From NCBI RefSeq assembly GCF_004803755.1, contig NZ_CP032311.1, positions 4,356,501 to 4,420,500 on the forward strand: a stretch of 64,000 nucleotides of DNA, in the 5' to 3' direction. The stretch is from Pseudomonas sp. DG56-2 (GTDB taxonomy: Bacteria; Pseudomonadota; Gammaproteobacteria; Pseudomonadales; Pseudomonadaceae). The notes under the pieces are model-generated. The model ran no database searches, was not told the DNA's origin, and saw nothing but the letters and a program-made list of their open reading frames with translations. Positions 18,783 to 36,147 of the stretch are shown piece after piece (position 1 is the stretch's first letter; each line of letters begins with the position of its first letter). A program made the translations under genes and the position numbers.

Positions 18783-19634
18783 ATGGCTGTGAAAGAGATG
18801 TACGCAATCGCCCCTCAATGGAATTCGCCACGCTCCAGGGAAGACCTGGAGCCGACCGAAATCGAATTTCGCAATGTCGGCAAATGTTTCCCAGCCAAAG
18901 GCAAGTCCGAGGCGCCCTTCGCCATTCGCGAGGTGAATTTCAAGATTCGTCGCGGTGAGGTGGTATCGATCATCGGTCCGTCCGGCTGTGGCAAAAGCAC
19001 CATCCTCAACATGGGCTCGGGCCTTTACCGCCCCAGCGAAGGCGAAGTCTTCGTCGGTGGCGAAGCCGTGGTTGGACCGGTGCGCAAAGTCGCCTTCATG
19101 TTGCAAAAAGATTTGCTGATGCCGTGGCGCAGCATTCGCCGTAACGTCGAGTTGGGCCTGGAAATCCAGGGCATGCCCGCGTCCCAACGCCAGACCATTG
19201 CCGAAGATCTGCTCAACCGCTGCCATCTGCAAGGTTTTGCCGACCACTATCCCTTCCAGCTGTCGGGCGGCATGCGCCAACGTGCAGCGCTGGCCCGAAC
19301 CCTGGCGGTCGATCCACAAGTATTGTTCCTCGATGAGCCGTTTTCGGCCCTCGATGCGCAAACCAAAATGATCCTCCAGCAGGATCTGGCAAAGATGCTC
19401 TACGAAGAGAAAAAAACTGCGCTGTTCATCACGCATGACCTGGTCGAGGCAATTGCCATGTCCGACCGTCTGCTGGTCATGAGTGCCCGCCCCGGCACCA
19501 TCATCGAAGAAATCGATGTCGACCTGCCGTTTCGCGACAACCCGCTTGAACGCCGCAAGCTGCCGGAGATCGGCCCCCTGGCTGGCCGCCTGATGGAACT
19601 GCTGAAAGTCGGCGAAGACACCGAACTGCATTGA
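18783..19634 (+). CDS. ABC importer ATP-binding protein (NitT/TauT type)
   Basis: A 283-residue ATPase. Walker A GPSGCGKST is near residue 64, the Q-loop is in MLQKDLLMPW, the signature is LSGGMRQRAALARTLA, and Walker B is VLFLDEPFSALD, followed by the H-loop FITHD. It is closest in layout to the SsuB/TauB/NrtD group, which serves importers of sulfonates, nitrate, pyrimidine precursors and aromatic acids. It is the first gene of the catabolic operon. The binding protein and permease genes follow directly, so it powers uptake of the operon substrate. Confidence 0.92.
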   Translation: MAVKEMYAIAPQWNSPRSREDLEPTEIEFRNVGKCFPAKGKSEAPFAIREVNFKIRRGEVVSIIGPSGCGKSTILNMGSGLYRPSEGEVFVGGEAVVGPVRKVAFMLQKDLLMPWRSIRRNVELGLEIQGMPASQRQTIAEDLLNRCHLQGFADHYPFQLSGGMRQRAALARTLAVDPQVLFLDEPFSALDAQTKMILQQDLAKMLYEEKKTALFITHDLVEAIAMSDRLLVMSARPGTIIEEIDVDLPFRDNPLERRKLPEIGPLAGRLMELLKVGEDTELH

Positions 19635-19673
19635 TCAACGCCTCACGGCCCATCAACCGATTAAGGAGTACGC

Positions 19674-20672
19674 ATGTTCAAGTCCCTGCAACGCCTTGCG
19701 CAGACTTCGCTCATTACCCTGGGGCTTGGTCTGGCAGTGTCTGCCCAGGCAGAGCCGACCAAGGTTACTTACCTGCTGCCCGCGCCGCCCAACTCCCCGG
19801 CCTTTGCGCCATGGATCATTGCCAAGGAAAAGGGCTATTACAGTGCCAGGGACCTGGACCTGACCTTTATCGCCGCCAAGGGCGGCGTGGATGTCGCCAA
19901 ACAGATCGGCGCCGGCAATGCCATGCTCGGTGGCGCCATCGGTGACACCCCGATTGTGGTTCGTGCCAACGGTATTCCGGTACGCGCCGTGGCCGTGCTC
20001 GGTGCCGGCGGTGTGACCATGATCGCCACTAATGCCGGTGAGAACATTCAGTCGGTCAAGGACCTCAAGGGCAAGACCCTGACCGTGATGTCGTACTCCG
20101 ACACGACCTACTACGCCCTCCTCGCGTCCTTGCGCAAAGCTGGCTTGAGCAAAACCGACGTCGACATCCAGGCCGCCGGCCCGTCGGGCGTCTGGCAGTT
20201 GTTCTCGGCGAACAAGGCGCAGGCCATGGCCGGTGTGCCGGACTGGGTGGTCAATGCCGAAGAGGCCGGACTGAAGATCAACCTGATTCCTCAGGAACAG
20301 ATTTTCGAAAGCATGGCCCAGGCCATCCTGGCTTCCGATGACGCCATCAAGCATCAGCCAAAGATTGTCGCAGGCGTTGTCCAGGCCACCCTGCAGGGCA
20401 TGCACGACATCATCCAGAACCCGAAAGCTGCGGCTGCGACGTTCGCCAAAGCCGTCCCGGCCTACGCCGGCAAGGAAGCGGCGCTGGAGAAAACTTTCCG
20501 CCTCTACGTCGAGCATGTCTACGCCAATCAGCCCGTGCTCGGCCGGATCGATCCCGCACGACTGGACACGGTACGCAAGTTCTATGTCAGCGAAGGCATC
20601 GTCGCCAGAGAACCCAAGCTCGACGAGCTCTACAGCAACCAGTTCATCGAAACCACCACGGCCGCGCAATAA
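19674..20672 (+). CDS. ABC importer substrate-binding protein (NMT1/TauA type)
   Basis: A 332-residue periplasmic protein. The signal peptide runs to about residue 25 (LITLGLGLAVSAQA), followed by a two-lobed NMT1/SsuA-like domain (KVTYLLPAPPNSPAFAPWII, GGAIGDTPIVVRANG, VKDLKGKTLTVM). It captures the substrate for the ABC importer. The ligand cannot be deduced; relatives bind sulfonates, thiamine precursors or aromatic carboxylates such as phthalate. The gene lies 39 bases after the ATPase gene with AAGGAG before the ATG. Confidence 0.9.
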   Translation: MFKSLQRLAQTSLITLGLGLAVSAQAEPTKVTYLLPAPPNSPAFAPWIIAKEKGYYSARDLDLTFIAAKGGVDVAKQIGAGNAMLGGAIGDTPIVVRANGIPVRAVAVLGAGGVTMIATNAGENIQSVKDLKGKTLTVMSYSDTTYYALLASLRKAGLSKTDVDIQAAGPSGVWQLFSANKAQAMAGVPDWVVNAEEAGLKINLIPQEQIFESMAQAILASDDAIKHQPKIVAGVVQATLQGMHDIIQNPKAAAATFAKAVPAYAGKEAALEKTFRLYVEHVYANQPVLGRIDPARLDTVRKFYVSEGIVAREPKLDELYSNQFIETTTAAQ

Positions 20673-20701
20673 GCCTGGATGTATAAAAAGGTATTAGCCC
20701 G

Positions 20702-21478
20702 ATGAGAAATCTCAACACCTCCGTGCTCGGCAGCATTGCCTTGCTGATCCTGTTCCTGCTGACCTGGCAATGGGGTCCTGGCCTGCTCGGCATGCCCGAG
20801 TTCGTCATGCCGCAACTGACTCGCGTAGTGCAAGAAAGCGTGGTCATGTGGCAGTCCAGCGCGCTGCTCGAACACACCCTGATCACGGCCTTCGAAATCA
20901 TCGTAGGCTTTGGCCTCGGCGCTTTGCTCGGCGTTGCCATCGGTGTATCGCTGGGCCTGTCGCCATCGGCCGAAGCCATGCTCTCGCCCTACATCCTGGC
21001 GTTGCAGATCGCGCCGAAGGTGGCCTTCGCCCCGCTGTTCGTAATGTGGCTGGGCTACACCATCTATCCGAAGATTCTCATCGCCATTCTGATCGTGTTC
21101 TTCCCGGTAATGATCAACGTGCTGTCGGCAATCCGCACCGTGGACCCGGACATGATCAACCTGGTACGCACCATGAGCGCCAGCCGCTGGCAGATCTTCC
21201 GCCTGGTGGAATTCCCTTCGGCCATGGCCGCGCTGTTCTCCGGCCTGCGCATTGCTTCGACCCTGGCGGTGATCGGCGTCACCGTCGGTGAGCTGGTTGG
21301 CGGCAACCAGGGCTTGGGTTTCCTGCTGGTAGACGCTGAAGGCCAGGGCAACACCGCCGGGGTTTTCGTCGCCATTGTCATGCTTACCCTGATTGGCGTG
21401 CTGGCCTATGGCGCCGTGGTCTGGGCCGAGAAGCGTGTCCTCCACTACCTGCCCAAAGCCATGCTGAGTACCCAATGA
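20702..21478 (+). CDS. ABC importer permease (NitT/TauT type)
   Basis: A 258-residue integral membrane protein with about six helices and the EAA loop RTMSASRWQIFRLVEFPSAM that docks on the ATPase. It belongs to the SsuC/TauC permease family. Together with the two preceding genes it completes a three-component importer; one permease gene would work as a homodimer. The stop overlaps the start of the SDR gene by four bases, which ties transport to catabolism. Confidence 0.9.
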   Translation: MRNLNTSVLGSIALLILFLLTWQWGPGLLGMPEFVMPQLTRVVQESVVMWQSSALLEHTLITAFEIIVGFGLGALLGVAIGVSLGLSPSAEAMLSPYILALQIAPKVAFAPLFVMWLGYTIYPKILIAILIVFFPVMINVLSAIRTVDPDMINLVRTMSASRWQIFRLVEFPSAMAALFSGLRIASTLAVIGVTVGELVGGNQGLGFLLVDAEGQGNTAGVFVAIVMLTLIGVLAYGAVVWAEKRVLHYLPKAMLSTQ

Positions 21479-22242
21479 TGAGCCCATTCAACACCATGCT
21501 TGAAGGCCGTCGCGTGCTCGTCACCGGCGGTGCTCGCGGCCTCGGTTACGCCTTCGCTCAGGCCATCGGCCAGGCGGGTGCGCGGGTGGTGATCGCCGAC
21601 ATCCTCATCGAGCGCGTGCAGCAGGCTGCCTGCGAGTTGCGCGAGCAAGGCTTGCAGGTCAGCGGCGTCACCCTCGACTTGGGCAACCCCGATTCGATCA
21701 CTGCTTGCGTCGCCCAGGCCACTGCCGAACTCGGCGGCTTGGACGGCCTGGTCAATAACGCATCAATTACCAACTCCGGTGGCAAGACCTGCGAGCAACT
21801 GGACATCGAAACCTGGGACCAGGTGATGCAGGTGAATGTACGCGGTACCTGGTTAATGACCTGCGCCTGCCTGCCAGCCCTGCGTGCCAGCGGCAAAGGT
21901 GCGGTGATCAACCTGGCCTCCGACACGCCGTTGTGGGGAGCGCCGAACCTGCTGGCTTATGTCGCCAGCAAGGGTGCGATCATCGCCATGACCCGCAGCC
22001 TTGCCCGTGAACTTGGCAGCGACAACATCACCGTCAACGCCATTGCCCCTGGCCTGGTGCTGGTGGAGGCCACCGCTTACGTACCCGAGGCGCGCCACCG
22101 GCTGTACACCGAACAACGGGCCATTCAACGCCCGCAACTGCCAGAAGACGTCAGTGGCGCCGTGCTGTTCGCCCTGTCCGATCTGTCTCGCTTCATCACT
22201 GGACAAACCCTGCCGGTCAACGGCGGGTTCGTCATGCCCTGA
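21475..22242 (+). CDS. SDR-family oxidoreductase with intact catalytic site
   Basis: A 255-residue classical short-chain dehydrogenase. The Rossmann motif TGGARGLG is near residue 16, NNAS near residue 90, the catalytic Ser is in INLASDTPLWG, and YVASK (near residue 160) holds the Tyr/Lys pair. It would oxidise or reduce an alcohol/ketone, or dehydrogenate a cis-dihydrodiol, in the pathway. Two ATG codons lie at 21475 and 21478; either gives coupling to the permease stop. The cupin gene follows after 14 bases. Confidence 0.9.
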   Translation: MMSPFNTMLEGRRVLVTGGARGLGYAFAQAIGQAGARVVIADILIERVQQAACELREQGLQVSGVTLDLGNPDSITACVAQATAELGGLDGLVNNASITNSGGKTCEQLDIETWDQVMQVNVRGTWLMTCACLPALRASGKGAVINLASDTPLWGAPNLLAYVASKGAIIAMTRSLARELGSDNITVNAIAPGLVLVEATAYVPEARHRLYTEQRAIQRPQLPEDVSGAVLFALSDLSRFITGQTLPVNGGFVMP

Positions 22243-22256
22243 CCAAGGAGAAATCC

Positions 22257-22796
22257 ATGACCGACCTTTCCGTTCAAAACGACGCACCAAAGACCTGGGA
22301 ACAACCTGCAGGCACTGATCTGGCAGGCTGGATGCAAACCCGCATCGCCCGCTACGAAACCCGCAAGTACGACTGGGATGCGTTGAAGTTCCAGGCCGAC
22401 TTCGATCCCAAGTTCCGTCGTGCCCAAATGCGCTACGTGGGCACCGGTGGCACCGGGGTCAACACCGACATGAACACTATCGCCTCGGAGAACTTTACCT
22501 TTTCGACCATGGTCATCCCGGCCGGCCATGAAGGTCCACCGCACATTCATACCGACGTCGAGGAAGTGTTCTTCGTCCTGCGCGGCAAGTTGAAAGTGAT
22601 CATCGAGAAAGATGGCGAGCGCTACGAAACCATCCTCTCCGACCGCGACCTGATTTCGGTACCGCCAGGGGTATACCGCGAAGAGATCAACATCGGTGAT
22701 GAAGATGCGCTGATGTGCGTGATGCTCGGGGCGAAAAAGCCGGTAACGCCAACCTATCCGCCAGCGCACCCGCTGGCCTCGATCAAGCGCGGGTAA
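22257..22796 (+). CDS. Cupin-domain protein
   Basis: A 179-residue protein with one cupin barrel. Motif 1 is GPPHIHTDVEEVFFVLRG near residue 97, giving His, His and Glu ligands for a metal. Motif 2 is around LISVPPGVYREEINIG, where the usual His is not obvious. The N-terminal 70 residues are unlike other cupins. It may be a dioxygenase, an isomerase or a binding protein for a ring-cleavage product. Tight spacing (14 and 4 bases) to its neighbours shows that it belongs to the operon. Confidence 0.85.
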   Translation: MTDLSVQNDAPKTWEQPAGTDLAGWMQTRIARYETRKYDWDALKFQADFDPKFRRAQMRYVGTGGTGVNTDMNTIASENFTFSTMVIPAGHEGPPHIHTDVEEVFFVLRGKLKVIIEKDGERYETILSDRDLISVPPGVYREEINIGDEDALMCVMLGAKKPVTPTYPPAHPLASIKRG

Positions 22797-22800
22797 GGCT

Positions 22801-23670
22801 ATGTTGCACGCCACCGACAATCCGACCCTCGCGTTGCCCGCCCAGCTGGAGCAACGCTTCCCGCTGCGCCTGGTGCAACTGGACGAGCGCACGCAAGCGA
22901 TACGTGAAGCAGGACAGGGTCCGGCCATCGTTCTTTTGCATGGCATCGGTTCAGGGGCCGCGTCCTGGCTGCAGGTGGCCGTGCAATTGAGTGGCAAAGC
23001 ACGGGTGATCGCCTGGGATGCACCCGGTTATGGGCAATCCAGCCCATTGCCTGACCCGGCACCCAAGGCAACGGACTATGCTCGGCGCCTGCGCCAGTTG
23101 CTCGATGCGATGGACATTGAACGCTGTGTGCTGGTCGGTCACTCCCTCGGCGCCCTCACCGCTGCAGCGTTTGCCTGCAATGCCCCCGAACGAGTCAGCC
23201 GCCTGGTGCTGCTCAGCCCGGCGCAGGGCTACGGCGACCCCGCCCGCGCAGCACAGGCCGATGAAGTGCGCAGCAAGCGCTTGCAGGGGTTGGAGCAACT
23301 GGGCATCGCCAAGCTCGCCGAGCAACGCAGCGCACACATGCTTTCGGCAGCGGCCAACAGCGATGCGCGCGCCTGGGTGCAATGGAATATGGCGCGTCTG
23401 CTGCCACAAGGCTATCGCCAGGCCATCGAACTGTTGTGCGGCGACCACCTGCTGCGCTACGCGAACCACTCTGTGCCTTGCGAAGTGCACTGCGGGGCCG
23501 CCGACAGCATCACCACCGCAACCGACTGTAAAGCCCTGGCCGACACCCTGGGCGCTGCGTTTCATCTGATCGCCGCGGCCGGCCACGCCAGCCCGATCGA
23601 ACAACCCGAGGCCGTGGCAACCCTGCTTGCCCAGGCACTCGACGTCTCACTGACAGGTACTGCGCTATGA
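22801..23670 (+). CDS. Alpha/beta hydrolase, meta-cleavage hydrolase-like
   Basis: A 289-residue hydrolase. The oxyanion segment IVLLHGIGSGAASW is near residue 42, the nucleophile elbow VLVGHSLGA near residue 110, the acidic residue is around HCGAADSITT, and the final His is in AAGHASPIEQPE. The overall layout resembles carbon-carbon hydrolases of aromatic meta-cleavage pathways and 3-oxoadipate enol-lactonases. Together with the VOC dioxygenase in the same operon this suggests hydrolysis of a ring-fission product. It overlaps the IclR gene by four bases. Confidence 0.88.
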   Translation: MLHATDNPTLALPAQLEQRFPLRLVQLDERTQAIREAGQGPAIVLLHGIGSGAASWLQVAVQLSGKARVIAWDAPGYGQSSPLPDPAPKATDYARRLRQLLDAMDIERCVLVGHSLGALTAAAFACNAPERVSRLVLLSPAQGYGDPARAAQADEVRSKRLQGLEQLGIAKLAEQRSAHMLSAAANSDARAWVQWNMARLLPQGYRQAIELLCGDHLLRYANHSVPCEVHCGAADSITTATDCKALADTLGAAFHLIAAAGHASPIEQPEAVATLLAQALDVSLTGTAL

Positions 23671-24491
23671 ATGATTCGGATCTGTTGAAAGACAACCAGG
23701 ATAAATACATCGTCCCCGGCCTTGAGCGCGGCCTGTTGCTGCTCTGCGAGTTCAGCCGGCAAAACCGTACCCTGACGGCACCGGAGCTGGCGCGCCGCCT
23801 GGAACTGCCGCGTTCGACCATCTTCCGTCTGCTGACCACCTTGGAAACCATGGGTTTCGTGACCCGTAGTGGCAACGAATATCGCCTGGGCATGTCGGTA
23901 CTGCGCCTGGGCTTCGAATACCTCGCCTCGCTGGAACTGACCGAGTTGGGTCAGCCGCTGCTGGCACGCCTGTGCGACCACCTTAACTATCCAAGCAACC
24001 TGGTGGTGCGTGACGGTCGCTCGATTGTCTATGTGGCCAAGGTCTCGCCGCCGTCGGTGTTCTCCAGCGCGGTCAACGTCGGTACTCGCCTGCCCGCCCA
24101 CGCCACGGTGCTCGGCCGCATCCTGCTGGAAGACTTGAGCCTGGCCGAACTGCGCGATCTGTACCCGGAAGAACACCTCGAGCAGCACTCGCCGTGCACG
24201 CCGAAAACCGTGCTGGAGCTGTTCGACCTGGTACAGAGCGACCGTCAGCGCGGCTTTGTCAGCGGTGAAGGTTTCTTCGAGTCGTCGATCTCGACCATCG
24301 CTGCGCCGGTGCGTGATCACAGCGGCAAAGTCGTTGCCGCCATGGGGGTAACCATCCCTACCGCGCAAGTTGGCCACATCAACTTCGATGGCCTGCTTGG
24401 CCACGTGCGCGGCAGCGCCGATGAGCTCTCACGCCTGCTCAACTACACGCCCCATGCCGGTGGCCGTGTTACCGCACTGATGAGGGATTGA
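23667..24491 (+). CDS. IclR-family regulator of the catabolic operon
   Basis: A 274-residue regulator. The N-terminal winged helix has the family signature VPGLERGLLLL and RSTIFRLLTTLETMGFV (about residues 12-70), and the C-terminal effector domain ends near residue 260 (PVRDHSGKVVAAMGV). It is close in style to PcaR/PobR-type regulators of aromatic catabolism. It is unusual in sitting inside the operon it probably controls, overlapping the hydrolase gene by four bases and one base before the next gene. This would give feedback on its own level. Likely sites are the ATAAAACAA motifs near 18.6 and 34.7 kb. Confidence 0.9.
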   Translation: MNDSDLLKDNQDKYIVPGLERGLLLLCEFSRQNRTLTAPELARRLELPRSTIFRLLTTLETMGFVTRSGNEYRLGMSVLRLGFEYLASLELTELGQPLLARLCDHLNYPSNLVVRDGRSIVYVAKVSPPSVFSSAVNVGTRLPAHATVLGRILLEDLSLAELRDLYPEEHLEQHSPCTPKTVLELFDLVQSDRQRGFVSGEGFFESSISTIAAPVRDHSGKVVAAMGVTIPTAQVGHINFDGLLGHVRGSADELSRLLNYTPHAGGRVTALMRD

Positions 24492-24492: not shown

Positions 24493-25293
24493 ATGAGCAA
24501 CCTCTATCAACTGCAAGGGCGTACCGCAATTGTTACCGGCGGCTCTTCCGGGATTGGTCTGGCCTGTGTCGAGCAACTGCTCGAAGCCGGCGCCGCGGTG
24601 GCTTTCTGCGGCCGCGACCAGGACCGTCTGAACAGCGCTCAAGCGCGCCTGCGCGAACGTTTTCCCCAAGCGCGTCTGCTGGCCCAGGTTTGCGATGTGC
24701 TTGATGCCGAATCGGTCAAGGCCTTCGCCGCCGCCAGCCTGGCCGCGCTCGGCCCGGCGCAGGTATTGATCAACAACGCCGGACAAGGTCGGGTGTCTAC
24801 CTTCGCCGACACCACCGATGAGGCCTGGAGCGAAGAGCTGCAGCTTAAATTCTTCTCGGTGATCTATCCGGTTCGCGCCTTCCTGCCACAGTTGCAAGCG
24901 CAGCGCGACGCCTCGATCGTCTGCGTCAATTCACTGCTGGCCAGCCAGCCGGAGCCGCACATGGTCGCTACCTCGGCAGCACGTGCCGGGCTGAAGAATC
25001 TGGTGCGATCGATGGCCACCGAATTCGCCGAAAAGAGCATTCGGGTCAACGGCATTCTCATTGGCCTGGTTGAGTCCGGCCAGTGGCGGCGGCGCTTCGA
25101 AGCCCGCGAAGAACGCGAGCTCGACTGGTCGCAATGGACCGCACAACTGGCACAACGCAAACACATTCCCCTGGGTCGTCTGGGTCTGCCCAAAGAAGCA
25201 GCCCAGGCCATCCTGTTCCTGGCTTCGCCCCTGTCGGCTTACACCACTGGCAGCCATATCGATGTTTCTGGAGGCCTGTCCCGCCATGCGTAA
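24493..25293 (+). CDS. Atypical SDR-family protein lacking catalytic Tyr and Lys
   Basis: A 266-residue short-chain dehydrogenase fold with a good cofactor motif TGGSSGIG (near residue 15) and NNAG (near residue 94), and Ser147 in VNSLLASQ. However, the YxxxK pair is replaced by Thr160 and Arg164 (ATSAARAGLKN). The C-terminal part also has an inserted charged stretch (RRRFEAREERELDW). It belongs to a divergent SDR subgroup. It could still act as a lyase, isomerase or binding partner, or use other acid-base residues. It overlaps the ThDP gene by eight bases. Confidence 0.85.
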   Translation: MSNLYQLQGRTAIVTGGSSGIGLACVEQLLEAGAAVAFCGRDQDRLNSAQARLRERFPQARLLAQVCDVLDAESVKAFAAASLAALGPAQVLINNAGQGRVSTFADTTDEAWSEELQLKFFSVIYPVRAFLPQLQAQRDASIVCVNSLLASQPEPHMVATSAARAGLKNLVRSMATEFAEKSIRVNGILIGLVESGQWRRRFEAREERELDWSQWTAQLAQRKHIPLGRLGLPKEAAQAILFLASPLSAYTTGSHIDVSGGLSRHA

Positions 25294-26978: not shown

Positions 26979-27782
26979 ATGCTCAACATCACCATGATCG
27001 GCTGCGGCGCCATTGGCGTTGCCGTACTGGAGCTACTGGAGAACGACACGCAAATGCGCGTCGAGCATGTGATCGCCTCGGCGGGCTCTGAAGCGCTGGT
27101 GCAACAGCGCCTGGCGGCATTCAAAAACCCTCCGCTGGTGCTCACCGCGCTGCCCGCCGACGCTCGTCCGGACCTGTTGGTCGAGTGCGCCGGGCATATG
27201 GCCATTGAAGAGCACGTGTTGCCGGCACTGGAGCGAGGGGTCGCCTGCCTGATTGTCTCGGTGGGTGCGCTTTCGCAGGTGGGTCTGGTCGAACGCCTGG
27301 AAGCGGCTGCGGCCCGCGGCAATACCCGCATAGAACTGCTGCCCGGCGCCATCGGTGGTATCGATGCGCTGTCGGCGGCCAAGGTCGGCGGCCTGGATTC
27401 GGTCGACTACACCGGTCGCAAGCCGGCCAAGGCATGGAAGAACACCCCAGCCGAACAGATTTGCGACCTGGAAACCATCGATCAGGCCACGGTGATCTTC
27501 CAGGGCAGCGCCCGTGAAGCGGCGCGCTTGTATCCCAAGAACGCCAACGTCGCCGCCACCCTGTCGCTAGCCGGGCTGGGCCTGGACCGCACCCACGTGA
27601 CGCTGATCGCCGATCCGCTGAGCGAGGAAAACGTCCATCACTTCGAGGCTCGCGGCGCCTTTGGCGGTTTCGAGATGAGCCTGCGCGGCAAGCCACTGCA
27701 AGCCAACCCGAAGACGTCGGCGCTGACGGTGTACAGCGTGGTCCGTGCGCTGGGCAATCACGCTCATGCCATTTCCATCTAG
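26979..27782 (+). CDS. Aspartate dehydrogenase-like oxidoreductase (NadX family)
   Basis: A 267-residue NAD(P)-dependent protein. The Rossmann motif MIGCGAIGVAVLEL is at the start, ECAGHMAIEEHVLP near residue 67, LLPGAIGGIDAL near residue 119, and the family block YPKNANVAATLSLAGLGLD near residue 187. NadX oxidises L-aspartate to iminoaspartate. With no nadA/nadC nearby and aromatic catabolism genes around it, this copy more likely oxidises another amino acid, or reduces an imine, in the pathway. Ten-base gaps separate it from its neighbours. Confidence 0.87.
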   Translation: MLNITMIGCGAIGVAVLELLENDTQMRVEHVIASAGSEALVQQRLAAFKNPPLVLTALPADARPDLLVECAGHMAIEEHVLPALERGVACLIVSVGALSQVGLVERLEAAAARGNTRIELLPGAIGGIDALSAAKVGGLDSVDYTGRKPAKAWKNTPAEQICDLETIDQATVIFQGSAREAARLYPKNANVAATLSLAGLGLDRTHVTLIADPLSEENVHHFEARGAFGGFEMSLRGKPLQANPKTSALTVYSVVRALGNHAHAISI

Positions 27783-29283: not shown

Positions 29284-30245
29284 GTGTTTTAGGTATCGAT
29301 GAAGTTACCTACGGCGTCGAGAACCTCGACACCTGCGTGCGTTTTTTCAGCGATTGGGGGCTGACAAAGGTCAGCGAAGCAGCCGACCAGGTGGTCTTCG
29401 AAACGCTTAATGGCTGCCGGGTGGTGCTGGCAGACATCAACAAGGCCGACCTACCGCCCGCCATCGAACCGGGCTCCACAGTGCGGGAAGTGGTTTGGGG
29501 TGTGGAAAGCGAAGCTGACCTGACCGTGTACAGCCAGCGCATCGCCAATGACCCGGGCTTTGTCGAAGGCAACGGGCGTATCGGCTGCACCGACCCCAAC
29601 GGCTTGGCGATTCGCCTGCAGGTTACGCGCAAACGTGCCCTGGACATCGAATGCAGCGGCCACAACACCTGGCAGAGCAAAGGCCGAATCAACAAGCCGG
29701 CGCCGGTCTACGAGCGTGCCACGCCTATCGAAGTGGGCCACGTGGTGTTCTTCGTCAAAGACGTGAATAGCTGCGAAGCCTTCTACCACGAACGCTTCGG
29801 CTTCCAGGCCTCGGACCGTTATCCCAACCGTGGCGCCTTCCTGCGTACCGCCGAGGAAGGCGGTCACCACGACCTGTTCATGCTGCAACTGCCAGCACCC
29901 AGGGCAGGCCTGAACCATGTGGCGTTCACCGTGCGCGACCTGCATGAAGTGTTCGGTGGTGGCATGCACATCTCTCGCAGCGGCTGGGCTACCGAAATCG
30001 GCCCGGGGCGTCACCCGGTTTCCTCGGCGTTCTTCTGGTACTTCAAGAACCCGGCTGGCGCGCTGGTCGAGTATTACGCCGATGAAGACCAGTTGACCGC
30101 TGAGTGGCAACCCCGCGAGTTCGAGCCGGGACCGACCGTCTTCGCCGAGTGGGCAATCGCCGGTGGCATCGATGGCAACACCCGACGCCAGCAGCATGTC
30201 GAGGCGCCGCAAGGCAAGTTTCTTACCGACAAACCGAAACCTTGA
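29280..30245 (+). CDS. VOC-family extradiol dioxygenase-like protein
   Basis: A 321-residue protein with two VOC (betaalphabetabetabeta) modules, about residues 5-115 and 150-270. The second carries the three iron ligands of type I extradiol dioxygenases: His154 (VGHVVFFVKD), His213 (LNHVAFTVRD) and Glu264 (ALVEYYAD). It probably opens a catechol-like ring next to a hydroxyl group. The C-terminal 50 residues are family-specific. The start is coupled to the dehydrogenase stop by a four-base overlap; the frame opening at 29229 lies within the dehydrogenase gene. Confidence 0.87.
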   Translation: MSVLGIDEVTYGVENLDTCVRFFSDWGLTKVSEAADQVVFETLNGCRVVLADINKADLPPAIEPGSTVREVVWGVESEADLTVYSQRIANDPGFVEGNGRIGCTDPNGLAIRLQVTRKRALDIECSGHNTWQSKGRINKPAPVYERATPIEVGHVVFFVKDVNSCEAFYHERFGFQASDRYPNRGAFLRTAEEGGHHDLFMLQLPAPRAGLNHVAFTVRDLHEVFGGGMHISRSGWATEIGPGRHPVSSAFFWYFKNPAGALVEYYADEDQLTAEWQPREFEPGPTVFAEWAIAGGIDGNTRRQQHVEAPQGKFLTDKPKP

Positions 30246-30258: not shown

Positions 30259-31401
30259 ATGTCTTCGTTGAACATCGCTATCAACGGTGCCGGAATCGGC
30301 GGCCTCACCGCCGCTATTGCCCTGCGCCAGGCCGGTCATCAGGTCACCGTCTTCGAGCAGTCCAAGGCCTTTCTGCGGGTCGGTGCCGACATCAACCTGA
30401 CCCCCAACGCCGTCCGAGCCCTCGATGGCCTGGGCATTGGCGCGGCGGTGCGTGTTCCGGCCGCACGCCCCACACACCGCATCAGTCGCCTGTGGGACAG
30501 CGGCGAGGAAACCTCGCGCCTGGAGATGGCCGAAGCTGCCGAAAGCCAGTACGGCGCACCGCAACTGACGATCCACCGCGCCGACTTGCTGGCGGCGCTG
30601 GCTGAGGTATTTCCACTACAGAACGTGCAGTTCGGCAAGCGTGCCGAGCAGGTGCGCCAAGATGCCAGCGGCATCGAACTGCACTTCAAAGATGGCAGCC
30701 AGCATCGCACAGACCTGTTGATCGGCGCCGACGGTATTCATTCGGTGGTGCGCAACGCGCTGTTTGGCGAGGAGCAACCGCGTTTCACTGGCGTGGTTGC
30801 CTATCGAGCCGTGGTCCCGGCCAGCCGTGTGGCCCACGTCCCGAACATTCAGGCTTTTACCAAATGGTGGGGACCAAACCCTCAAAGCCAGATTGTCACG
30901 TTCCCGCTGAACCAGGGCCGCGACATCTTCATTTTCGCCACCACAGCCCAGGACAGTTGGCATCTGGAGTCATGGACCACTGCGGGCGACGCCGCCGAAT
31001 TGCGCAGTCACTATCAGGACTTCCATCCCGATGCCCGCGCCTTGCTCGATGCCTGCGATGAAGTGCTCAAGACCGCACTGTATGAGCGTGATCCCCTGCC
31101 TTTCTGGTCGCAAGGGGCAATTACCCTGTTGGGTGACGCCTGCCACCCGATGATGCCATTCATGGCCCAAGGAGCCGGTCAAGCCATCGAGGATGCCGTG
31201 GTCCTGGCCCGTCATCTTCACGGTGTGACCGATGCGTCCCAGATAGCCAGGGCCTTGCAGGGCTATCAACAGGCGCGTCTTGAGCGTACCAGTCAGATCC
31301 AGATCGGTTCGCGTGGCAACCAATGGCTCAAGGCGGGTGGCAATGCCGACTGGGTCTACGGCTACGACGCCTGGACCGTGCCGACCACCCATGCCGCATG
31401 A
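30259..31401 (+). CDS. Class A FAD-dependent aromatic monooxygenase
   Basis: A 380-residue flavoprotein of the salicylate/3-hydroxybenzoate hydroxylase type. The FAD-binding GAGIGGLTAAIALRQAGH is near residue 10, the family motif LLIGADGIHSVVR near residue 155, and GDACHPMMPFMAQGAGQAIED near residue 293. It would hydroxylate, or decarboxylate and hydroxylate, an aromatic ring using NAD(P)H, and could supply the diol for the VOC dioxygenase encoded just upstream. The start at 30259 has CAGGAG upstream. The next small gene follows after ten bases. Confidence 0.9.
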   Translation: MSSLNIAINGAGIGGLTAAIALRQAGHQVTVFEQSKAFLRVGADINLTPNAVRALDGLGIGAAVRVPAARPTHRISRLWDSGEETSRLEMAEAAESQYGAPQLTIHRADLLAALAEVFPLQNVQFGKRAEQVRQDASGIELHFKDGSQHRTDLLIGADGIHSVVRNALFGEEQPRFTGVVAYRAVVPASRVAHVPNIQAFTKWWGPNPQSQIVTFPLNQGRDIFIFATTAQDSWHLESWTTAGDAAELRSHYQDFHPDARALLDACDEVLKTALYERDPLPFWSQGAITLLGDACHPMMPFMAQGAGQAIEDAVVLARHLHGVTDASQIARALQGYQQARLERTSQIQIGSRGNQWLKAGGNADWVYGYDAWTVPTTHAA

Positions 31402-31411: not shown

Positions 31412-31729
31412 ATGAACGAATCGATGCTGCTGACCGTGCTGCTCAAGCACGACCAGTCGAAGAACCTGGAGCAGATCCAGGCGCATATGAAAGCCATGGG
31501 CTGGTGGGAAAGCTTCCCGCCGCAAGGCGTCGAAGTGGTGTCCTGGACCGTGGCCATGGGCCTGGGCCAGATCGTCACCCTGCGCTTGCCGCCGAGCTTG
31601 CTGAGTAAGGTCAATGTAGAGCTGGAGCGCGCCGCCTGGGGCGTTTTCCGCACCGAATGCTATCCAACGTACGACTTTGTCCCGGTCCGCGAAATGATCC
31701 GCGAACGGGTCCGCAATGGAGGTCAATGA
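31412..31729 (+). CDS. Small protein of unknown function in the catabolic operon
   Basis: A 105-residue protein (MNESMLLTVLLKHDQSKNLE, later YPTYDFVPVREMIRERVR). I do not recognise a named family. The pattern strand-helix-strand-strand-helix suits a small ferredoxin-like or dabb-type fold, as in muconolactone isomerase or stand-alone monooxygenase subunits; that is inference only. The start could also be the ATG at 31421. It lies between the flavin monooxygenase and the small HTH-like gene, ten and one bases away, so it is surely translated with them. Confidence 0.7.
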   Translation: MNESMLLTVLLKHDQSKNLEQIQAHMKAMGWWESFPPQGVEVVSWTVAMGLGQIVTLRLPPSLLSKVNVELERAAWGVFRTECYPTYDFVPVREMIRERVRNGGQ

Positions 31730-31730
31730 C

Positions 31731-31958
31731 ATGAGCAACACCGAACGTTACCTGGACCCACACCAGGCGCGCAAACGGCCCAACACCCAGTTCGAGGAGC
31801 TGCTTGGCGACTCCATCGAGCGCGCCTACGGCAATGGCGTGACGCAACTGCCCGAGCTGCTCGCGCACCTCAATCTGGCCGGTCCACCCTGCCCGCTGAC
31901 CAGTGGCGAATGGACTGAAGACTCCTACAAAACCCTGATGGCACGGCTGGGCGCATGA
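31731..31958 (+). CDS. Recombinase-like helix-turn-helix small protein
   Basis: A 75-residue protein (MSNTERYLDPHQARKRPNTQ ... GEWTEDSYKTLMARLGA). The C-terminal part resembles the helix-turn-helix found at the end of serine recombinase domains, and small proteins of this kind are annotated as recombinase-like HTH next to Rieske oxygenase genes. No recombinase catalytic domain is present. It may be an oxygenase accessory protein rather than a DNA binder. It starts one base after the previous gene and lies 21 bases before the Rieske gene. Confidence 0.65.
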   Translation: MSNTERYLDPHQARKRPNTQFEELLGDSIERAYGNGVTQLPELLAHLNLAGPPCPLTSGEWTEDSYKTLMARLGA

Positions 31959-31979: not shown

Positions 31980-33014
31980 ATGAATATGCAATTCACCGTC
32001 GACCCTGTTGAGAATCACCTGGCCAATGGCCTCAAAGACCTCTGGTTCCCGGTCCTACCGTCGGACCTGCTCGGCGAAAAGCCGGTATCGGTACGGCGCC
32101 TGGGCTACAAGATCGCCTTGTGGCGCGATAACGATGGCAGCGTACACGCCCTTGAAGACCACTGTCCGCACCGCGGCGCGCCGCTTTCCCAGGGCCCGGT
32201 GCTGGGTGACCGTCTGCAGTGCCCGTACCACGGCGTTGAAGTGCGCTGCGACGGTACCGTGACCAAGGTCCCTGGCAGCCCCGGTTGCAAGCTCGAAGGC
32301 AGCCGCCCTACCCGTATGTTCCACACCCACGAAGCGGCCGGTGCGATCTTCCTGTTCAACGCCACCGATCCACATCTGCAAAACCCACCCGCGCTGGTAC
32401 TGCCTGAGCAGTTGACCTCGCCCGAGTGGAGCAGCTTCCTCTGCTACACCGAATGGAAAGGCGACTATCGCTACGTGCTCGACAACGTCATGGACCCGAT
32501 GCACGGCACTTACCTGCACAAAATGTCGCACTCAATGAGCGAAGGCGAAGCTACCGCCAAATTCGTCACTCGCGACACCGACCAGGGTTTCGTCTTCGAG
32601 AAGGAAGGCCAGCGCGGGGTCAACTTCGACTGGACCGAATTCCTCGACAACGGTTGTCATTGGCTGCGTCTGGAAATTCCATATCCAAAGACCGGTGGAC
32701 CAGGCGGTAACTTCACCATCATCGGCAGCTATACCCCGAGCAGTCGCAACTTGTCCGCAGTGTTCCACTGGCGCGCCCGGCCGTTGACCGGCTGGCAGCG
32801 TGACACCTGGCGTTTCCTCTACAAGAACCGCCTGGAAGCACGCCACTGGGCCGTACTGGAACAGGACCGGGTGTTGCTGGAGTTCATGGAAGCCGATGCC
32901 AATCAGCGTGAAAACCTCTACCAGCATGACCTGGGTGTGGTGCGCCTGCGCCGCTACCTCAAGGGCCAGGCCAAGGAGCAATTGGCGCTGATCGAAGCGA
33001 AGCAGCTGTCATGA
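31980..33014 (+). CDS. Rieske non-heme iron oxygenase, alpha subunit
   Basis: A 344-residue oxygenase of the VanA/phthalate dioxygenase type. The Rieske [2Fe-2S] ligands are Cys62-x-His64 (HCPHRGAPLS) and Cys81-x2-His84 (QCPYHGVEV). The mononuclear iron motif N169-x2-D172-x2-H175-x4-H180 (NVMDPMHGTYLH) follows, with an acidic ligand around EQDRVLLE. It would hydroxylate or O/N-demethylate an aromatic substrate using electrons from the VanB-type reductase encoded two genes later. No beta subunit gene is present, consistent with an alpha3 enzyme. GGAGG lies upstream. Confidence 0.93.
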   Translation: MNMQFTVDPVENHLANGLKDLWFPVLPSDLLGEKPVSVRRLGYKIALWRDNDGSVHALEDHCPHRGAPLSQGPVLGDRLQCPYHGVEVRCDGTVTKVPGSPGCKLEGSRPTRMFHTHEAAGAIFLFNATDPHLQNPPALVLPEQLTSPEWSSFLCYTEWKGDYRYVLDNVMDPMHGTYLHKMSHSMSEGEATAKFVTRDTDQGFVFEKEGQRGVNFDWTEFLDNGCHWLRLEIPYPKTGGPGGNFTIIGSYTPSSRNLSAVFHWRARPLTGWQRDTWRFLYKNRLEARHWAVLEQDRVLLEFMEADANQRENLYQHDLGVVRLRRYLKGQAKEQLALIEAKQLS

Positions 33015-33448
33015 GCCAGGCCGTGCAGCGTATTCAGGCACAGTCTGTGGGCGAGCTGGCTACGGCCAGTTGGTCCAACGCCCTGCTGCTCGGCAATGAA
33101 CTGGTGATGTCCGGCATGACCGGGCATCCCGCCACTCGACATGCAGCCGAAGCCGGAACTCCCTTGGATGCCTATGCACAGACCCTGGTGGTGCTGAACA
33201 AGGTGCGGGCTTTGGTGGAGGCCGCGGGCGGGCATATCGGCAATATCTACCGGCTGACCCTGTACCTCACCCGGATCGCCGACAAAGACGAAGTCGGTCG
33301 CGCACGCCGCGACTTCTTCGCAGGATTTGCTTGCTACCCCACCTCCACTCTGGTCGAAGTGAGCGCCCTGGTATTTCCGGAACTGGTGGTGGAAATCGAA
33401 GCCAGCGCCCGGCTCGACATTGACATGCGCACTGCGCCAACGAGGTGA
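33011..33448 (+). CDS. RidA/YjgF-family protein without the catalytic Arg
   Basis: A 145-residue trimeric-fold RidA relative (ALLLGNELVMSGMTGHP, VLNKVRALVEAAGGHIGNIY, LVVEIEASARL). The Arg that RidA, and the Rid1-3 groups, use to bind the carboxylate of imines is absent: the usual P-x-R-S-x-V-E-V reads PTSTLVEV. It therefore fits the less known Rid groups. It may hydrolyse a different imine or enamine; 2-aminomuconate deaminases of aromatic pathways belong to this superfamily. It overlaps the Rieske stop by four bases. Confidence 0.87.
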   Translation: MSQAVQRIQAQSVGELATASWSNALLLGNELVMSGMTGHPATRHAAEAGTPLDAYAQTLVVLNKVRALVEAAGGHIGNIYRLTLYLTRIADKDEVGRARRDFFAGFACYPTSTLVEVSALVFPELVVEIEASARLDIDMRTAPTR

Positions 33449-34411
33449 ATGATGTCCAACTCCTCTACTGTTACAGCGCTGGTGCATACCCTGCGCCATG
33501 AAGCCGAAGGTATCATCAGCGTCGAACTGCGCCCTTGGGGCGATACCGTATTCGCGCCATTCGAAGCCGGCTCGCACATCGACCTGCACCTACCCAACGG
33601 CCTGGTACGCAGTTACTCGCTGCTCAATTCGCCAACGGACCAGGGTCGCTATGTGGTTGGCATTTTGCGCGATCGCAACAGCCGTGGCGGTTCGGCCTTC
33701 GTACACGAACAGCTACGCGTCGGCTCGCAACTGAGCATTTCGCAGCCACGCAACAATTTTGCCCTCGACCCGCACGCCAGCCACAACGTGCTGGTGGCGG
33801 GTGGCATCGGCATCACCCCGATCTACTGCATGTTTCGCCAGTTGCTGGCGTTGGGTAAATCCGCCGAGTTGATCTACTGCGCCCGCTCACGCAAGGAAGC
33901 GGCGCTGCTGGAACAACTGAGCGGCCTCGATGCCAAGGTGATTTATCACTTCAACGACGAGAAAGGTACGGTGCCGGATCTGGCCCGCTACCTGGCCGGC
34001 CAGCCTTGTGACACGCACTTCTACTGCTGCGGCCCGACACCGATGCTCGATGCCTTCGAAAGTACCTGCGAAAGCCTTGGCTATCCTCACGCCCATATCG
34101 AACGCTTCGCCGCTGCCGAATTGCCGCCGGCCGAAGATGCCCAGGACAGCTACAGCGTCGAACTGAAAAAGTCCGGCAAAACCTTGAACATCGAACCGGG
34201 GCTGAACCTGCTCGATGTGCTTCTCGAAGCGGGATGCGACATTGAATACAGCTGCCGCGAAGGGGTATGCGGGTCATGCGAAACCCGCGTGCTGGAAGGT
34301 GATATCGACCACCGCGACGGGGTGCTGACCAAGGCTGAACGTGCGGCAAACAAATCGATGATGGTCTGTGTATCGGGCTGCAAGAGCCGGCGCATGGTCC
34401 TCGATTTGTAA
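33449..34411 (+). CDS. VanB/PDR-type oxygenase reductase
   Basis: A 320-residue reductase with an FMN-binding beta barrel (RSYSLLNSP near residue 52), an NAD-binding domain (VAGGIGITPIYCMFRQL near residue 113) and a C-terminal plant-type [2Fe-2S] ferredoxin domain (SCREGVCGSCETRV near residue 267, last Cys in MMVCVSGC). It passes electrons from NADH to the Rieske oxygenase in the same operon. It is the last gene before a strong terminator. Two ATGs lie at 33449 and 33452; the second has better spacing from GAGG. Confidence 0.92.
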   Translation: MMSNSSTVTALVHTLRHEAEGIISVELRPWGDTVFAPFEAGSHIDLHLPNGLVRSYSLLNSPTDQGRYVVGILRDRNSRGGSAFVHEQLRVGSQLSISQPRNNFALDPHASHNVLVAGGIGITPIYCMFRQLLALGKSAELIYCARSRKEAALLEQLSGLDAKVIYHFNDEKGTVPDLARYLAGQPCDTHFYCCGPTPMLDAFESTCESLGYPHAHIERFAAAELPPAEDAQDSYSVELKKSGKTLNIEPGLNLLDVLLEAGCDIEYSCREGVCGSCETRVLEGDIDHRDGVLTKAERAANKSMMVCVSGCKSRRMVLDL

Positions 34412-34437
34412 TCGCTGAAGCTTTACGCGCACGATTG

Positions 34438-34464
34438 ACCGGCACCGATGTGCCGGTTTTTTTT
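34438..34464 (+). terminator. Terminator of the catabolic operon
   Basis: Arms ACCGGCA and TGCCGGT followed by eight T residues: a classical rho-independent terminator 27 bases after the reductase stop. It separates the operon from the porin gene. Confidence 0.88.
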
Positions 34465-34466
34465 GC

Positions 34467-34495: not shown

Positions 34496-34563
34496 GCGCG
34501 AAACGGCAGCCTGACCTGGCTACCCGGCGTGTCCGTTTAAAATAGCCAGCTAATTATCCACTC

Positions 34564-34801
34564 ATAAAACAAACCATGCGCCACTAACGCGCGCTGTGCA
34601 ATTAAACCGCACTGCAACTGCACACGCCTGTTACTTAATTCCCACCCTGTTCCACCGACGATACAAATTCAATCGTTTCAAATATAAATAATTGTTTTAT
34701 ATAGCTTTTATCAAACTTCCCAGTATTTTCCCGCACTGGCACAGTTCCTGCTTTTTCTCTATCGCGTTCAAGCATAAAACAACGTACCGCCGATAAAACA
34801 A
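34564..34801. promoter_or_regulatory. Porin control region with four ATAAAACAA boxes
   Basis: ATAAAACAA occurs at 34564-34572, 34774-34782 and 34793-34801, and once inverted within TTGTTTTATATA at 34692-34703. The last exactly matches 12 bases of the other strand of the 18629 palindrome. The stretch from 34412 to 34917 contains no gene. This supports joint control of the porin and the operon by one regulator, most likely the IclR protein. Confidence 0.6.
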
Positions 34802-34917
34802 TAAAAACCCAACACCGCCAGCCAACTGTGCACCAACGCTGATTCTCGTTTAACGCCTTGTTCAAGGCAACGGACAGCTGTTGCCCACAGAAATGGCTCA
34901 ACCTTGCAGGGCATGAT

Positions 34918-36147
34918 ATGAACAAGTACGTGGTAAGCCTGGGCCTGATCCTCAGTAGTTGTGCAAGTTTCGCCTCCGAACCCGGTCCGGCCGCACCCGA
35001 TCAGCCACCTGCGGTAAAAAAGCCGTTCCCACACATTGCCTGGCGCAGTGACGACGGACAAAGCTCATTGGATATCGGCGGTGCCCTGCGGGTGAACTAC
35101 CGGGATGAACATTGGGACACCACAGAGAACAATGGCCGTTTTCTTTTCGATACCTTCCGTATCGATGTCCAGGCCACCCACAAACAATTGTTCAGTGATG
35201 TCGGCTACTGGTTTCAGGACGACGGCAAACGCTCTATCGACCGCGGCTACGTGGGTTATCGGTTTACCCCTAATGCCAACCTTCAAGTTGGTGCGCCGTT
35301 CAAACCCTTTGGCCTGGAACCTTACCCACAGTTTGGCTGGAGCTATCACATTCCGTTTTTCATGGGCTACGGCGTGAGTGCCGGCACGGGTCTCAAATAC
35401 AGCTACAAGGACAAGGACTGGGATCTGCAGCTAGGCTACTTTCCGCGCATGCTGCCTAGCGGCATTCGCTACTCACCGGAAGTCGGTCGCTACTCCGACC
35501 TGAACGACAACGCCGTGCCTTTCACCCAATCGCGCCAAGACAACGAAAAGCGCAATCAGGTCAACGCCAGGGTCGCCCGGACCTTTACCGGGGATGGCTG
35601 GAAAACCGAAATCGGCGCCTCGCTGGCCGCTGCGCAACTCTACAACGCCACCACAGACGACAATGGCGACTACTGGGCAGGTGGCGTCCACGCCATCATC
35701 AACGCCGGTCCGTGGACCGTTACCAGCCAAGCCATCCGCTATGAATATGACCCGAAAAACCCGGACGGTGTCAGTGACGACTCCGTGTTGATGGGCGGCA
35801 ACGGCCTGACGCCGGCCTTCCTGATCGCATCCAAGGCAACCATTGCGTCGGTCAACATCGGCTACGACATCTTTACGCCAAGCCTGGGGCAGTTGAAGAA
35901 GATCAAGCTGTACAACGACTACAGCCGGATGATGAAAGACAAAAGCGGCTGGGACGACTCGCAGATGTTCACCGTCGGTGCGCAGTTCCTGGCCATGCCG
36001 ATCATGGCTTGGCTCGACCTGACCTGGGCGAAGAACGCCAACCCTTTCGGCGGCGCGGAAAATGGCACCGGCTGGACCAGCACCAGCTCCATCGGCAGCA
36101 ATGACTGGTATTACCGCACCAACATCAACATTGGTTACTACTTCTGA
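34918..36147 (+). CDS. Outer-membrane porin (OprO/OprP-like)
   Basis: A 409-residue outer-membrane protein. A signal peptide (MNKYVVSLGLILSSCASFAS) is followed by alternating beta strands and the C-terminal aromatic residue (YYF) needed for barrel insertion. The middle segment ANLQVGAPFKPFGLEP is typical of the Porin_O_P family. It is likely the outer-membrane entry route for the substrate of the ABC importer, since both promoters share boxes. The start at 34918 is fixed by the signal peptide, with AGGG upstream. Confidence 0.82.
   Translation: MNKYVVSLGLILSSCASFASEPGPAAPDQPPAVKKPFPHIAWRSDDGQSSLDIGGALRVNYRDEHWDTTENNGRFLFDTFRIDVQATHKQLFSDVGYWFQDDGKRSIDRGYVGYRFTPNANLQVGAPFKPFGLEPYPQFGWSYHIPFFMGYGVSAGTGLKYSYKDKDWDLQLGYFPRMLPSGIRYSPEVGRYSDLNDNAVPFTQSRQDNEKRNQVNARVARTFTGDGWKTEIGASLAAAQLYNATTDDNGDYWAGGVHAIINAGPWTVTSQAIRYEYDPKNPDGVSDDSVLMGGNGLTPAFLIASKATIASVNIGYDIFTPSLGQLKKIKLYNDYSRMMKDKSGWDDSQMFTVGAQFLAMPIMAWLDLTWAKNANPFGGAENGTGWTSTSSIGSNDWYYRTNINIGYYF

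Follow-up and report, generated by a model that had tools for sequence, protein, structure and literature searches.

An 18-gene operon and its porin

This study concerns an operon of 18 genes, and a porin-like gene that follows it, in Pseudomonas sp. DG56-2. Both lie in a 64-kb stretch of DNA, called the window below, which covers positions 4356501-4420500 of a one-contig genome of 5.82 Mb; coordinates given for features are those of the window. The genes, all on the plus strand between 18783 and 34411, follow one another in the order abcA-abcS-abcP-sdr1-cupin-abh-iclR-sdr2-thdp-aspdh-aldh-voc-fmo-ethd-rlh-rieske-ridA-red, and neighbours either overlap or lie at most 39 bases apart, the widest gap being at 19634/19674. 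Such a tightly packed run had been described in an earlier note on this DNA, and all of its 18 open frames are present, the starts of several of them being placed inside longer GTG/TTG frames. The strong terminator of that description was found as a hairpin of 9 pairs with a T run, 3' of red, and the porin-like gene indeed follows, with an alternative earlier TTG start at 34858. Gene families were assigned from NCBIfam and Pfam, which confirmed the family calls first made from the sequence. The features are these:

18629-18648, no strand: near-palindrome before the operon, TTGTTTCATATATAAAACAA, which contains ATAAAACA; candidate operator (octamer count)
18783-19634, plus: abcA, importer ATPase of nitrate/sulfonate/taurine type, though its scores stay under the respective model cut-offs (NCBIfam)
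19674-20672, plus: abcS, NMT1/SsuA-type substrate-binding protein (NCBIfam/Pfam)
20702-21478, plus: abcP, importer permease (family match)
21475-22242, plus: sdr1, short-chain dehydrogenase (SDR); proposed cis-dihydrodiol dehydrogenase (family; SDR beside the Rieske gene in other loci)
22257-22796, plus: cupin, single-domain protein of 179 aa; proposed ring-cleaving dioxygenase for the 4,6-dihydroxypyridine intermediate (Pfam, residues)
22801-23670, plus: abh, alpha/beta hydrolase; proposed N-acyl enamine (amide) hydrolase (family, PDB matches, residues)
23667-24491, plus: iclR, PcaR/PcaU-like regulator of the IclR family, below that model's cut-off (NCBIfam)
24493-25293, plus: sdr2, short-chain dehydrogenase that passes the NF005468 cut-off; proposed to reduce the enone (NCBIfam)
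25286-26968, plus: thdp, thiamine diphosphate (ThDP) enzyme, NF005470 over cut-off; proposed 2-oxoacid decarboxylase (NCBIfam, residues)
26979-27782, plus: aspdh, aspartate dehydrogenase (AspDH), NF009827 at 446.7 bits against a cut-off of 226 (NCBIfam equivalog, residues)
27793-29283, plus: aldh, aldehyde dehydrogenase (family match)
29280-30245, plus: voc, two-domain extradiol-type dioxygenase with H154/H213/E264 (family, residues)
30259-31401, plus: fmo, flavin monooxygenase (FMO), optional gene (family, PDB match)
31412-31729, plus: ethd, 105 aa, without a family; predicted ferredoxin-like alpha+beta fold (structure model)
31731-31958, plus: rlh, helical protein of 75 aa, Pfam HTH_62; proposed oxygenase accessory protein (Pfam, model, position)
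31980-33014, plus: rieske, VanA-type Rieske oxygenase; proposed kynurenate 7,8-dioxygenase (Pfam, residues)
33011-33448, plus: ridA, putative RidA-family protein whose NCBIfam matches stay under cut-off; optional (NCBIfam)
33449-34411, plus: red, ferredoxin-type (PDR/VanB-like) reductase for the Rieske oxygenase (NCBIfam/Pfam)
34437-34458, plus: intrinsic terminator closing the operon (hairpin and T run)
34564-34800, no strand: pre-porin region with four ATAAAACA octamers, at 34564, 34693 (minus strand), 34774 and 34793 (octamer scan)
34918-36147, plus: porin-like outer-membrane protein, without a Pfam or NCBIfam family (present in 55/55 Pseudomonas-type loci)

That these genes form a complete unit for the import and breakdown of one aromatic compound, as the earlier note supposed, is well supported. 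We further estimate a probability of roughly 0.5 that the operon serves to take up and completely degrade a quinoline-2-carboxylate, kynurenate being the likeliest.

Conservation, spread and probable shared control

The operon is patchy in Pseudomonas, since its Rieske gene was found in 11 of the 149 Pseudomonas species genomes sampled, our own included. Where it does occur, the order of the genes holds: all ten of the other Rieske-bearing genomes differ only in optional genes, in a moved fmo gene (locus L117) or in a tripled pair of genes for the substrate-binding protein and the permease (L113, with three tandem copies inside the operon). Because the order is kept in all ten, the 18-gene layout is no chance arrangement. 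This gene order matched no characterised pathway that we found, in keeping with the first impression that the combination of families has no named counterpart, and the operon is a real, conserved and unassigned catabolic unit.

A set of 55 Pseudomonas-type loci, those longer than 20 kb among 59 (L005-L063), was drawn from the best 80 of 357 relatives and consists of the closest ones, not of a random sample. All 55 contain cupin, abh, iclR, sdr2, thdp, aspdh, aldh, voc, rlh, rieske, red and the porin gene; sdr1 was counted in 32 and sits in the other 23 at the edge of the locus, where it is cut below the coverage filter. The fmo gene and the ethd/ridA pair are optional: fmo was present in 27 of the 55, and ethd and ridA were both present in 34, both absent from 21 and discordant in none, despite not being adjacent. 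As the latter two are gained and lost strictly together, ethd and RidA are probably a functional pair. The closest named relatives, in a list that may omit records of the window's own genome, are Pseudomonas; P. arcuscaelestis P66 has a Rieske protein of 100% identity and 94-100% for the other 15 genes covered, and the P. alkylphenolica loci keep the order from sdr1 to the porin gene. In L063 gene finding gave sdr2 as two adjacent pieces where the first comparison had a single gene; a frameshift or an error of gene finding is the probable cause, not a duplication. A P. aeruginosa Rieske protein is 77% identical to that of the window, and its record (P0004) has RidA and Rieske domains in one chain of 432 aa, either a fusion or an annotation artefact. 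For the PAO1 counterpart, putatively PA3498-PA3514, the titles and abstracts of the matches listed from the open-licence PMC literature gave nothing on function.

A Rieske search of 369 genomes of the class at 1e-80 matched our own genome only, and a search for the ThDP gene in 9 genomes likewise returned only our own gene; in a phylum sample at 1e-60, the Rieske gene was present in 15 of 398 genomes. Forty-eight non-Pseudomonas loci were compared, namely 13 of the 26 Rieske matches in a plasmid collection, 21 Oceanobacter and Burkholderiales loci from the best 80 of 357 relatives, and 14 further loci. Their gene set is rearranged yet largely retained, and the core recurs, whole or partial, in alpha-, beta- and gammaproteobacteria. 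The plasmid-collection clusters belong to Klebsiella, Acinetobacter, Caballeronia, Novosphingobium, Nitratireductor, Pseudosulfitobacter, Paracoccus and Streptomyces, and the plasmid of Streptomyces chartreusis carries a compact operon of 11 genes (aldh, voc, aspdh, abh, cupin, sdr1, sdr2, thdp, red, rlh and rieske) at 28-58% identity. Electron partners differ by lineage: the window has a PDR-type reductase, Acinetobacter and Klebsiella have a Rieske ferredoxin and an FAD reductase, and Nitratireductor, Pseudosulfitobacter and Paracoccus have an FAD reductase and a flavodoxin. The transporters also vary among clusters (ABC, MFS, TctC or TRAP, named by eye or by annotation); the TctC, TRAP and MFS types are often used for organic acids. 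A sulfatase stands near the Rieske module in L064, L077, L079, L083 and L093, among other beta- and alphaproteobacterial loci; the sequences of L064 and L093 show a CQPNR stretch. These sulfatases are accompanied by a TRAP transporter or a binding protein of TctC type, and several by an FMO gene. In L100, from Acinetobacter, aspdh, aldh and thdp have the order of A. baumannii A1S_0956-0958 (AspDH, aldehyde dehydrogenase, acetolactate synthase), which a transcriptome study reports as rising on mucin, with change values of 2.18, 2.44 and 2.42 (PMC5757984); a search for more papers on these genes turned up none.

There are 7 copies of the octamer ATAAAACA in the window, where 0.56 would be expected, and none of 100 shuffles reached 7, an excess that is overstated because whole-window shuffles were compared with sites in AT-rich intergenic DNA. 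Two of the copies stand before the operon (one at 18757, and one forming half of the near-palindrome TTGTTTCATATATAAAACAA) and four between operon and porin gene, the seventh being at 59729. At least one copy precedes abcA in all nine relatives with enough upstream sequence (the tenth offers 3 bases only), and at least one precedes the porin gene in 6 of 10 Pseudomonas relatives; the octamer or a one-letter variant was found before the porin gene in 31 of 57 loci, so that its conservation there is partial. Since six of the seven octamers precede one or the other, operon and porin gene are probably under one common regulator, and the protein acting at both promoters is probably, in the simplest case, the operon's own IclR protein. 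DMT-like transporter genes, below the model cut-off, flank operon and porin gene on both sides (17456-18472 and 36189-37088).

Enzyme families and a proposed route for kynurenate

The genes, their families and residues, the kept order, the co-inheritance of ethd and ridA and the common octamer are shown by the DNA and its comparison with relatives. Residues were compared in alignments of L005-L084, with identical copies removed and more than 38% identity, plus selected annotated loci; the 14 further loci were excluded. The Rieske oxygenase, with Pfam Rieske and VanA_C domains over cut-off, keeps C62, H64, C81 and H84 (CxH/CxxH) as well as H175, H180 and D296 (2-His-1-Asp) in 85/85 sequences. 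In the VOC dioxygenase, the three iron ligands pointed out by the earlier note, H154, H213 and E264 (2-His-1-Glu, in the C-terminal module), are present in 84/84; the protein matches the HpaD and catechol 2,3-dioxygenase models, both below the equivalog cut-off. The hydrolase has S115, D235 and H262 in 60/60, and its weaker solved matches include alpha-(N-acetylaminomethylene)succinate hydrolase, with equal similarity to C-C hydrolases such as BphD. The cupin has H96, H98, E102, E103 and R141 in 58/58, positions whose meaning as metal ligands follows a known motif pattern; it matched no NCBIfam model at 1e-5, and so was not assigned as a 3-hydroxyanthranilate dioxygenase. The aspdh product passes its equivalog model by a wide distance (see the list) and has the active-site residues H220 and N190 in 74/74, so that by family and residues it is predicted to be an L-aspartate dehydrogenase.

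The best PDB match of FMO is 6-hydroxynicotinate 3-monooxygenase (NicC, 276 bits), and decarboxylative vanillate 1-hydroxylase is also among its solved relatives. The ridA product scores 39.7 of 106.25 bits with TIGR00004 and 35.9 of 222 with PRK11401, both below cut-off. For ethd, the model (pLDDT 77) shows a ferredoxin-like fold of a generic kind, for which a fold search gave no useful relative. The rlh product, which matches Pfam HTH_62 ('recombinase-like HTH'), is modelled by AlphaFold as three helices (pLDDT 85), without a PDB match below E 1; its gene stands beside the Rieske gene in 55/55 Pseudomonas-type loci and in other clusters, and the protein may be an oxygenase accessory protein instead of a recombinase or regulator. 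By NCBIfam and Pfam, the 18 genes include no hydratase-aldolase family and no recognised formaldehyde-disposal family, and no aminocarboxymuconate decarboxylase was seen among them. Of 2391 Rieske homologues, the best 120 bear, if they are named at all, generic names such as 3-phenylpropionate dioxygenase.

The kynurenate (quinoline) pathway of Pseudomonas is known from enzyme work around 1961, and its intermediates, as given in KEGG, pass through oxygenation at C7-C8, dehydrogenation of the diol, ring cleavage at 8,8a, reduction of the side chain, decarboxylation to an aldehyde and oxidation of the latter to an acid. From gene family, residue conservation and gene order we infer the substrate, the order of the steps, the assignment of the two SDRs, the chemistry of cupin and hydrolase and the regulation by IclR, as follows. 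The ABC importer and the porin would take up the acid, with IclR probably governing both promoters. The Rieske oxygenase and its reductase would put O2 on C7-C8 of kynurenate (step 1), and an SDR would oxidise the dihydrodiol to 7,8-dihydroxykynurenate (step 2). For this second step sdr1 is proposed, because the Rieske gene has an SDR gene immediately behind it in 12 of the 14 further loci and 9 of 12 annotated ones, as a diol dehydrogenase would lead one to expect. Cleavage at 8,8a by the VOC dioxygenase would give 5-(3-carboxy-3-oxopropenyl)-4,6-dihydroxypicolinate (step 3), the side-chain double bond of which would be reduced by the other SDR, possibly sdr2 (step 4). The ThDP enzyme would then decarboxylate the 2-oxoacid to 5-(2-formylethyl)-4,6-dihydroxypicolinate (step 5), and the aldehyde dehydrogenase would form the 2-carboxyethyl acid (step 6). 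Using O2, the cupin might open the beta-dicarbonyl-like pyridine that is left, at its C4-C5 bond (step 7), after which cleavage of the N1-C6 amide by the alpha/beta hydrolase would yield 2-oxoglutarate and aminofumarate/iminosuccinate (step 8). Iminosuccinate is an imine handled by AspDH and RidA-type enzymes; AspDH, with RidA where present, would convert it to aspartate, or to oxaloacetate and ammonia (step 9).

Every described kynurenate step has a capable enzyme family in the operon, which leaves rlh, cupin, hydrolase and AspDH as the rest of the core. The middle intermediates of the proposed route agree with those in KEGG, and atoms balance at each proposed step, the 10 carbons being accounted for by 2-oxoglutarate, a C4 compound and CO2. 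The 11-gene core, as seen in Streptomyces, covers the needs of all nine steps, and the optional genes fmo and ethd/ridA are dispensable for the proposed route. Of the substrates that we could find, kynurenate or a closely related quinoline-2-carboxylate fits the operon best. Metabolomics papers name 7,8-dihydro-7,8-dihydroxykynurenate, 7,8-dihydroxykynurenate and the dihydroxypicolinates with a carboxyoxopropyl or a carboxyethyl side chain; these are compound lists, silent on bacterial genes. A bolder proposal is that the operon is the missing bacterial gene set for kynurenate and ends in new chemistry, in which a 2-His-1-Glu cupin would split a 4,6-dihydroxypyridine, the hydrolase would release 2-oxoglutarate, and AspDH with RidA would harvest the ring nitrogen as iminosuccinate; this we advance only tentatively, and with odds below even. 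It is speculation that FMO hydroxylates xanthurenate to 7,8-dihydroxykynurenate, bypassing steps 1 and 2.

Comparison with known systems places the operon near several of them. With the kynurenate pathway it has in common that each of the six described conversions is matched by an operon family, but we found no genes assigned to that pathway in the literature, and the cupin, hydrolase and AspDH steps are our own proposal. The layout with Rieske and VanA_C domains and the PDR/VanB-like reductase of the window recall VanAB and DdmC, whereas the sequences are distant and the electron partners of the cluster vary by lineage. Naphthalene-type upper pathways also dioxygenate a bicyclic compound with a Rieske enzyme, dehydrogenate the diol and cleave one ring in extradiol fashion; the operon, however, has no hydratase-aldolase, which the ThDP decarboxylase and the aldehyde dehydrogenase would replace. 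An aldehyde dehydrogenase and a RidA-type deaminase (putative in the operon) also belong to the meta pathway of 2-aminophenol and 3-hydroxyanthranilate, from which the operon differs in its unassigned cupin, in its optional RidA and in the lack of a visible aminocarboxymuconate decarboxylase. The NicC-like FMO and a hydrolase somewhat similar to alpha-(N-acetylaminomethylene)succinate hydrolase are reminiscent of nicotinate and vitamin B6 degradation, but the operon is led by a Rieske and a VOC dioxygenase, and its hydrolase is equally BphD-like. Among the matches listed from 5.39 million open-licence PMC papers, which include few subscription papers and no bioRxiv preprints, we found no genes for the degradation of kynurenate, quinaldate or xanthurenate, no pathway joining AspDH, a Rieske enzyme and RidA, and nothing on AspDH and PAO1 with iminoaspartate and RidA.

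Weighing the substrate

A number of observations weigh against kynurenate or against parts of the proposed route. The order of its intermediates is taken over from KEGG, and the best PDB match of the Rieske protein is a monooxygenase, dicamba O-demethylase (DdmC, E 2e-20). In the Pseudomonas order, sdr1 stands away from the Rieske gene. Cleavage by the cupin (step 7) is the least certain step, because R141 stands where the usual fourth cupin metal ligand would be a His and because the nearest solved relatives are weak quercetinase matches (E 1e-5). Three alphaproteobacterial loci (L105, L106 and L162) carry instead a two-domain cupin of 314-315 aa, at 33-35% identity, which has the His while keeping HxH and Glu, and the alphaproteobacterial VOC protein is only about 30% identical to that of the window. 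At least one cluster locally lacks the last three steps: L086, from the Burkholderiales genome G700, has no AspDH, cupin or hydrolase gene while keeping both flanking gene sets. In 11 further loci of the 48 no AspDH was found, mostly in short stretches or where only voc-rlh-rieske-red is seen. Seven of these (L064, L069, L073-L075, L077 and L084) show only the latter four genes, and in L066 nothing but rieske, rlh and a cupin is seen. The other three, L093, L094 and L097, are alphaproteobacterial loci in which the rest of the genes was either not seen or falls outside the stretch, the AspDH and ThDP genes of L093 being in the adjoining L118. P. aeruginosa is not known as a species that grows on kynurenate.

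The evidence on a link to tryptophan breakdown is divided. The tryptophan dioxygenase (TDO) gene is commoner where the Rieske gene is present, both in pseudomonads (5/11 against 22/138, Fisher p 0.029, with G020, whose match had E 7e-4, left out) and in the phylum sample (9/15 against 85/383, Fisher p 0.002), tests that ignore kinship. But our own genome has neither tryptophan dioxygenase nor kynureninase, and none of the loci examined has kynurenine-pathway genes inside the operon. A dedicated kynurenate branch, arising by loss of kynureninase, was considered and dropped: kynureninase is present in all five pseudomonads that have both cluster and TDO, about 11 kb or less from the TDO gene, and for this reason nothing here points to a dedicated quinoline branch. 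In four of the five, KynB and TDO occur without an adjacent KynU. Kynureninase does not set the genomes with the Rieske gene apart from those without it. In G711 (L118) TDO and kynureninase genes lie about 12 kb from the cluster, a proximity that may be due to chance. In G700 (L119, 15397-17916), a second TDO gene is accompanied by an aminotransferase, a RidA and a permease-like gene, without kynureninase (functions named by eye); we give this set no weight, as it is absent from the TDO regions of five other cluster-bearing Burkholderiales and as the G700 cluster is the one that lacks AspDH, cupin and hydrolase.

It is also conceivable, though we think it unlikely, that the type of route is right and the true substrate is another quinoline-2-carboxylate, either quinaldate, entering by a molybdenum hydroxylase, or xanthurenate or its sulfate, entering by a sulfatase and FMO, with kynurenate as one entry or an intermediate. 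Molybdenum hydroxylases often act on N-heteroaromatics, and their genes adjoin the module in several Burkholderiales (L064, L069, L073, L075 and Caballeronia NK8 pNK84); the CQPNR sulfatases near the module, several of them near FMO, would argue in the same direction, and a formation of 7,8-dihydroxykynurenate by FMO without the Rieske step could explain why FMO is optional. The window's own operon, however, has neither a molybdenum hydroxylase nor a sulfatase gene by NCBIfam and Pfam, and the loci were gathered by their Rieske gene, so that Rieske-less clusters cannot appear among them. Moreover, for the large subunit of the NK8 molybdenum enzyme the nearest solved relative is 4-hydroxybenzoyl-CoA reductase, with quinoline 2-oxidoreductase lower; for this reason the neighbouring hydroxylases would speak for an aromatic substrate in general and less for a quinoline, which also tells against kynurenate.

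A similarly low probability goes to some other nitrogen-bearing aromatic acid, of the hydroxypyridine, indole or aminobenzoate type, with a different carbon skeleton from which AspDH and RidA would remove the nitrogen. The retention of AspDH in most clusters and the nearness of FMO to NicC among solved structures are consistent with it, and the enzyme set can be drawn onto other bicyclic acids; but kynurenate accommodates very economically the extradiol cleavage, the ThDP decarboxylation, the aldehyde oxidation without a hydratase-aldolase and a C4 imine product, and the cupin, by its lack of an NCBIfam match, is no 3-hydroxyanthranilate dioxygenase. That the substrate contains nitrogen, which is likely, had been proposed in the earlier note from AspDH and RidA together. 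The first half of this argument stands, aspdh being present in all 55 Pseudomonas-type loci and in 36 of the 48 others, whereas the second does not, RidA being absent from 21 of the 55. Least probable, in our view, is a methoxylated, nitrogen-free aromatic acid, for which the Rieske protein would be an O-demethylase while AspDH and RidA serve general nitrogen metabolism. The VanA_C domain, the match to DdmC and the vanillate 1-hydroxylase among the relatives of FMO would suit such a substrate, but an aspdh gene forms part of the cluster in Acinetobacter, Klebsiella, Caballeronia, Novosphingobium, Nitratireductor, Paracoccus, Streptomyces and Pseudomonas, which is hard to square with a substrate free of nitrogen, and the 18 genes include no recognised family that would dispose of formaldehyde.

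Kynurenic acid is a widespread tryptophan product that is active in animals, and the gene-by-gene list of proposed steps would make its bacterial breakdown directly testable. Clusters of this kind occur in proteobacteria and on at least one Streptomyces plasmid; as public records give the Rieske enzyme unspecific names, such as 3-phenylpropionate dioxygenase or vanillate O-demethylase, a correct assignment would repair many annotations. If kynurenate is indeed the substrate, FMO, where present, and the sulfatases or molybdenum hydroxylases that accompany it in other lineages would be an entry for xanthurenate, its sulfate and quinaldate, and the same route would operate in Acinetobacter, in Klebsiella and probably in Pseudomonas aeruginosa.

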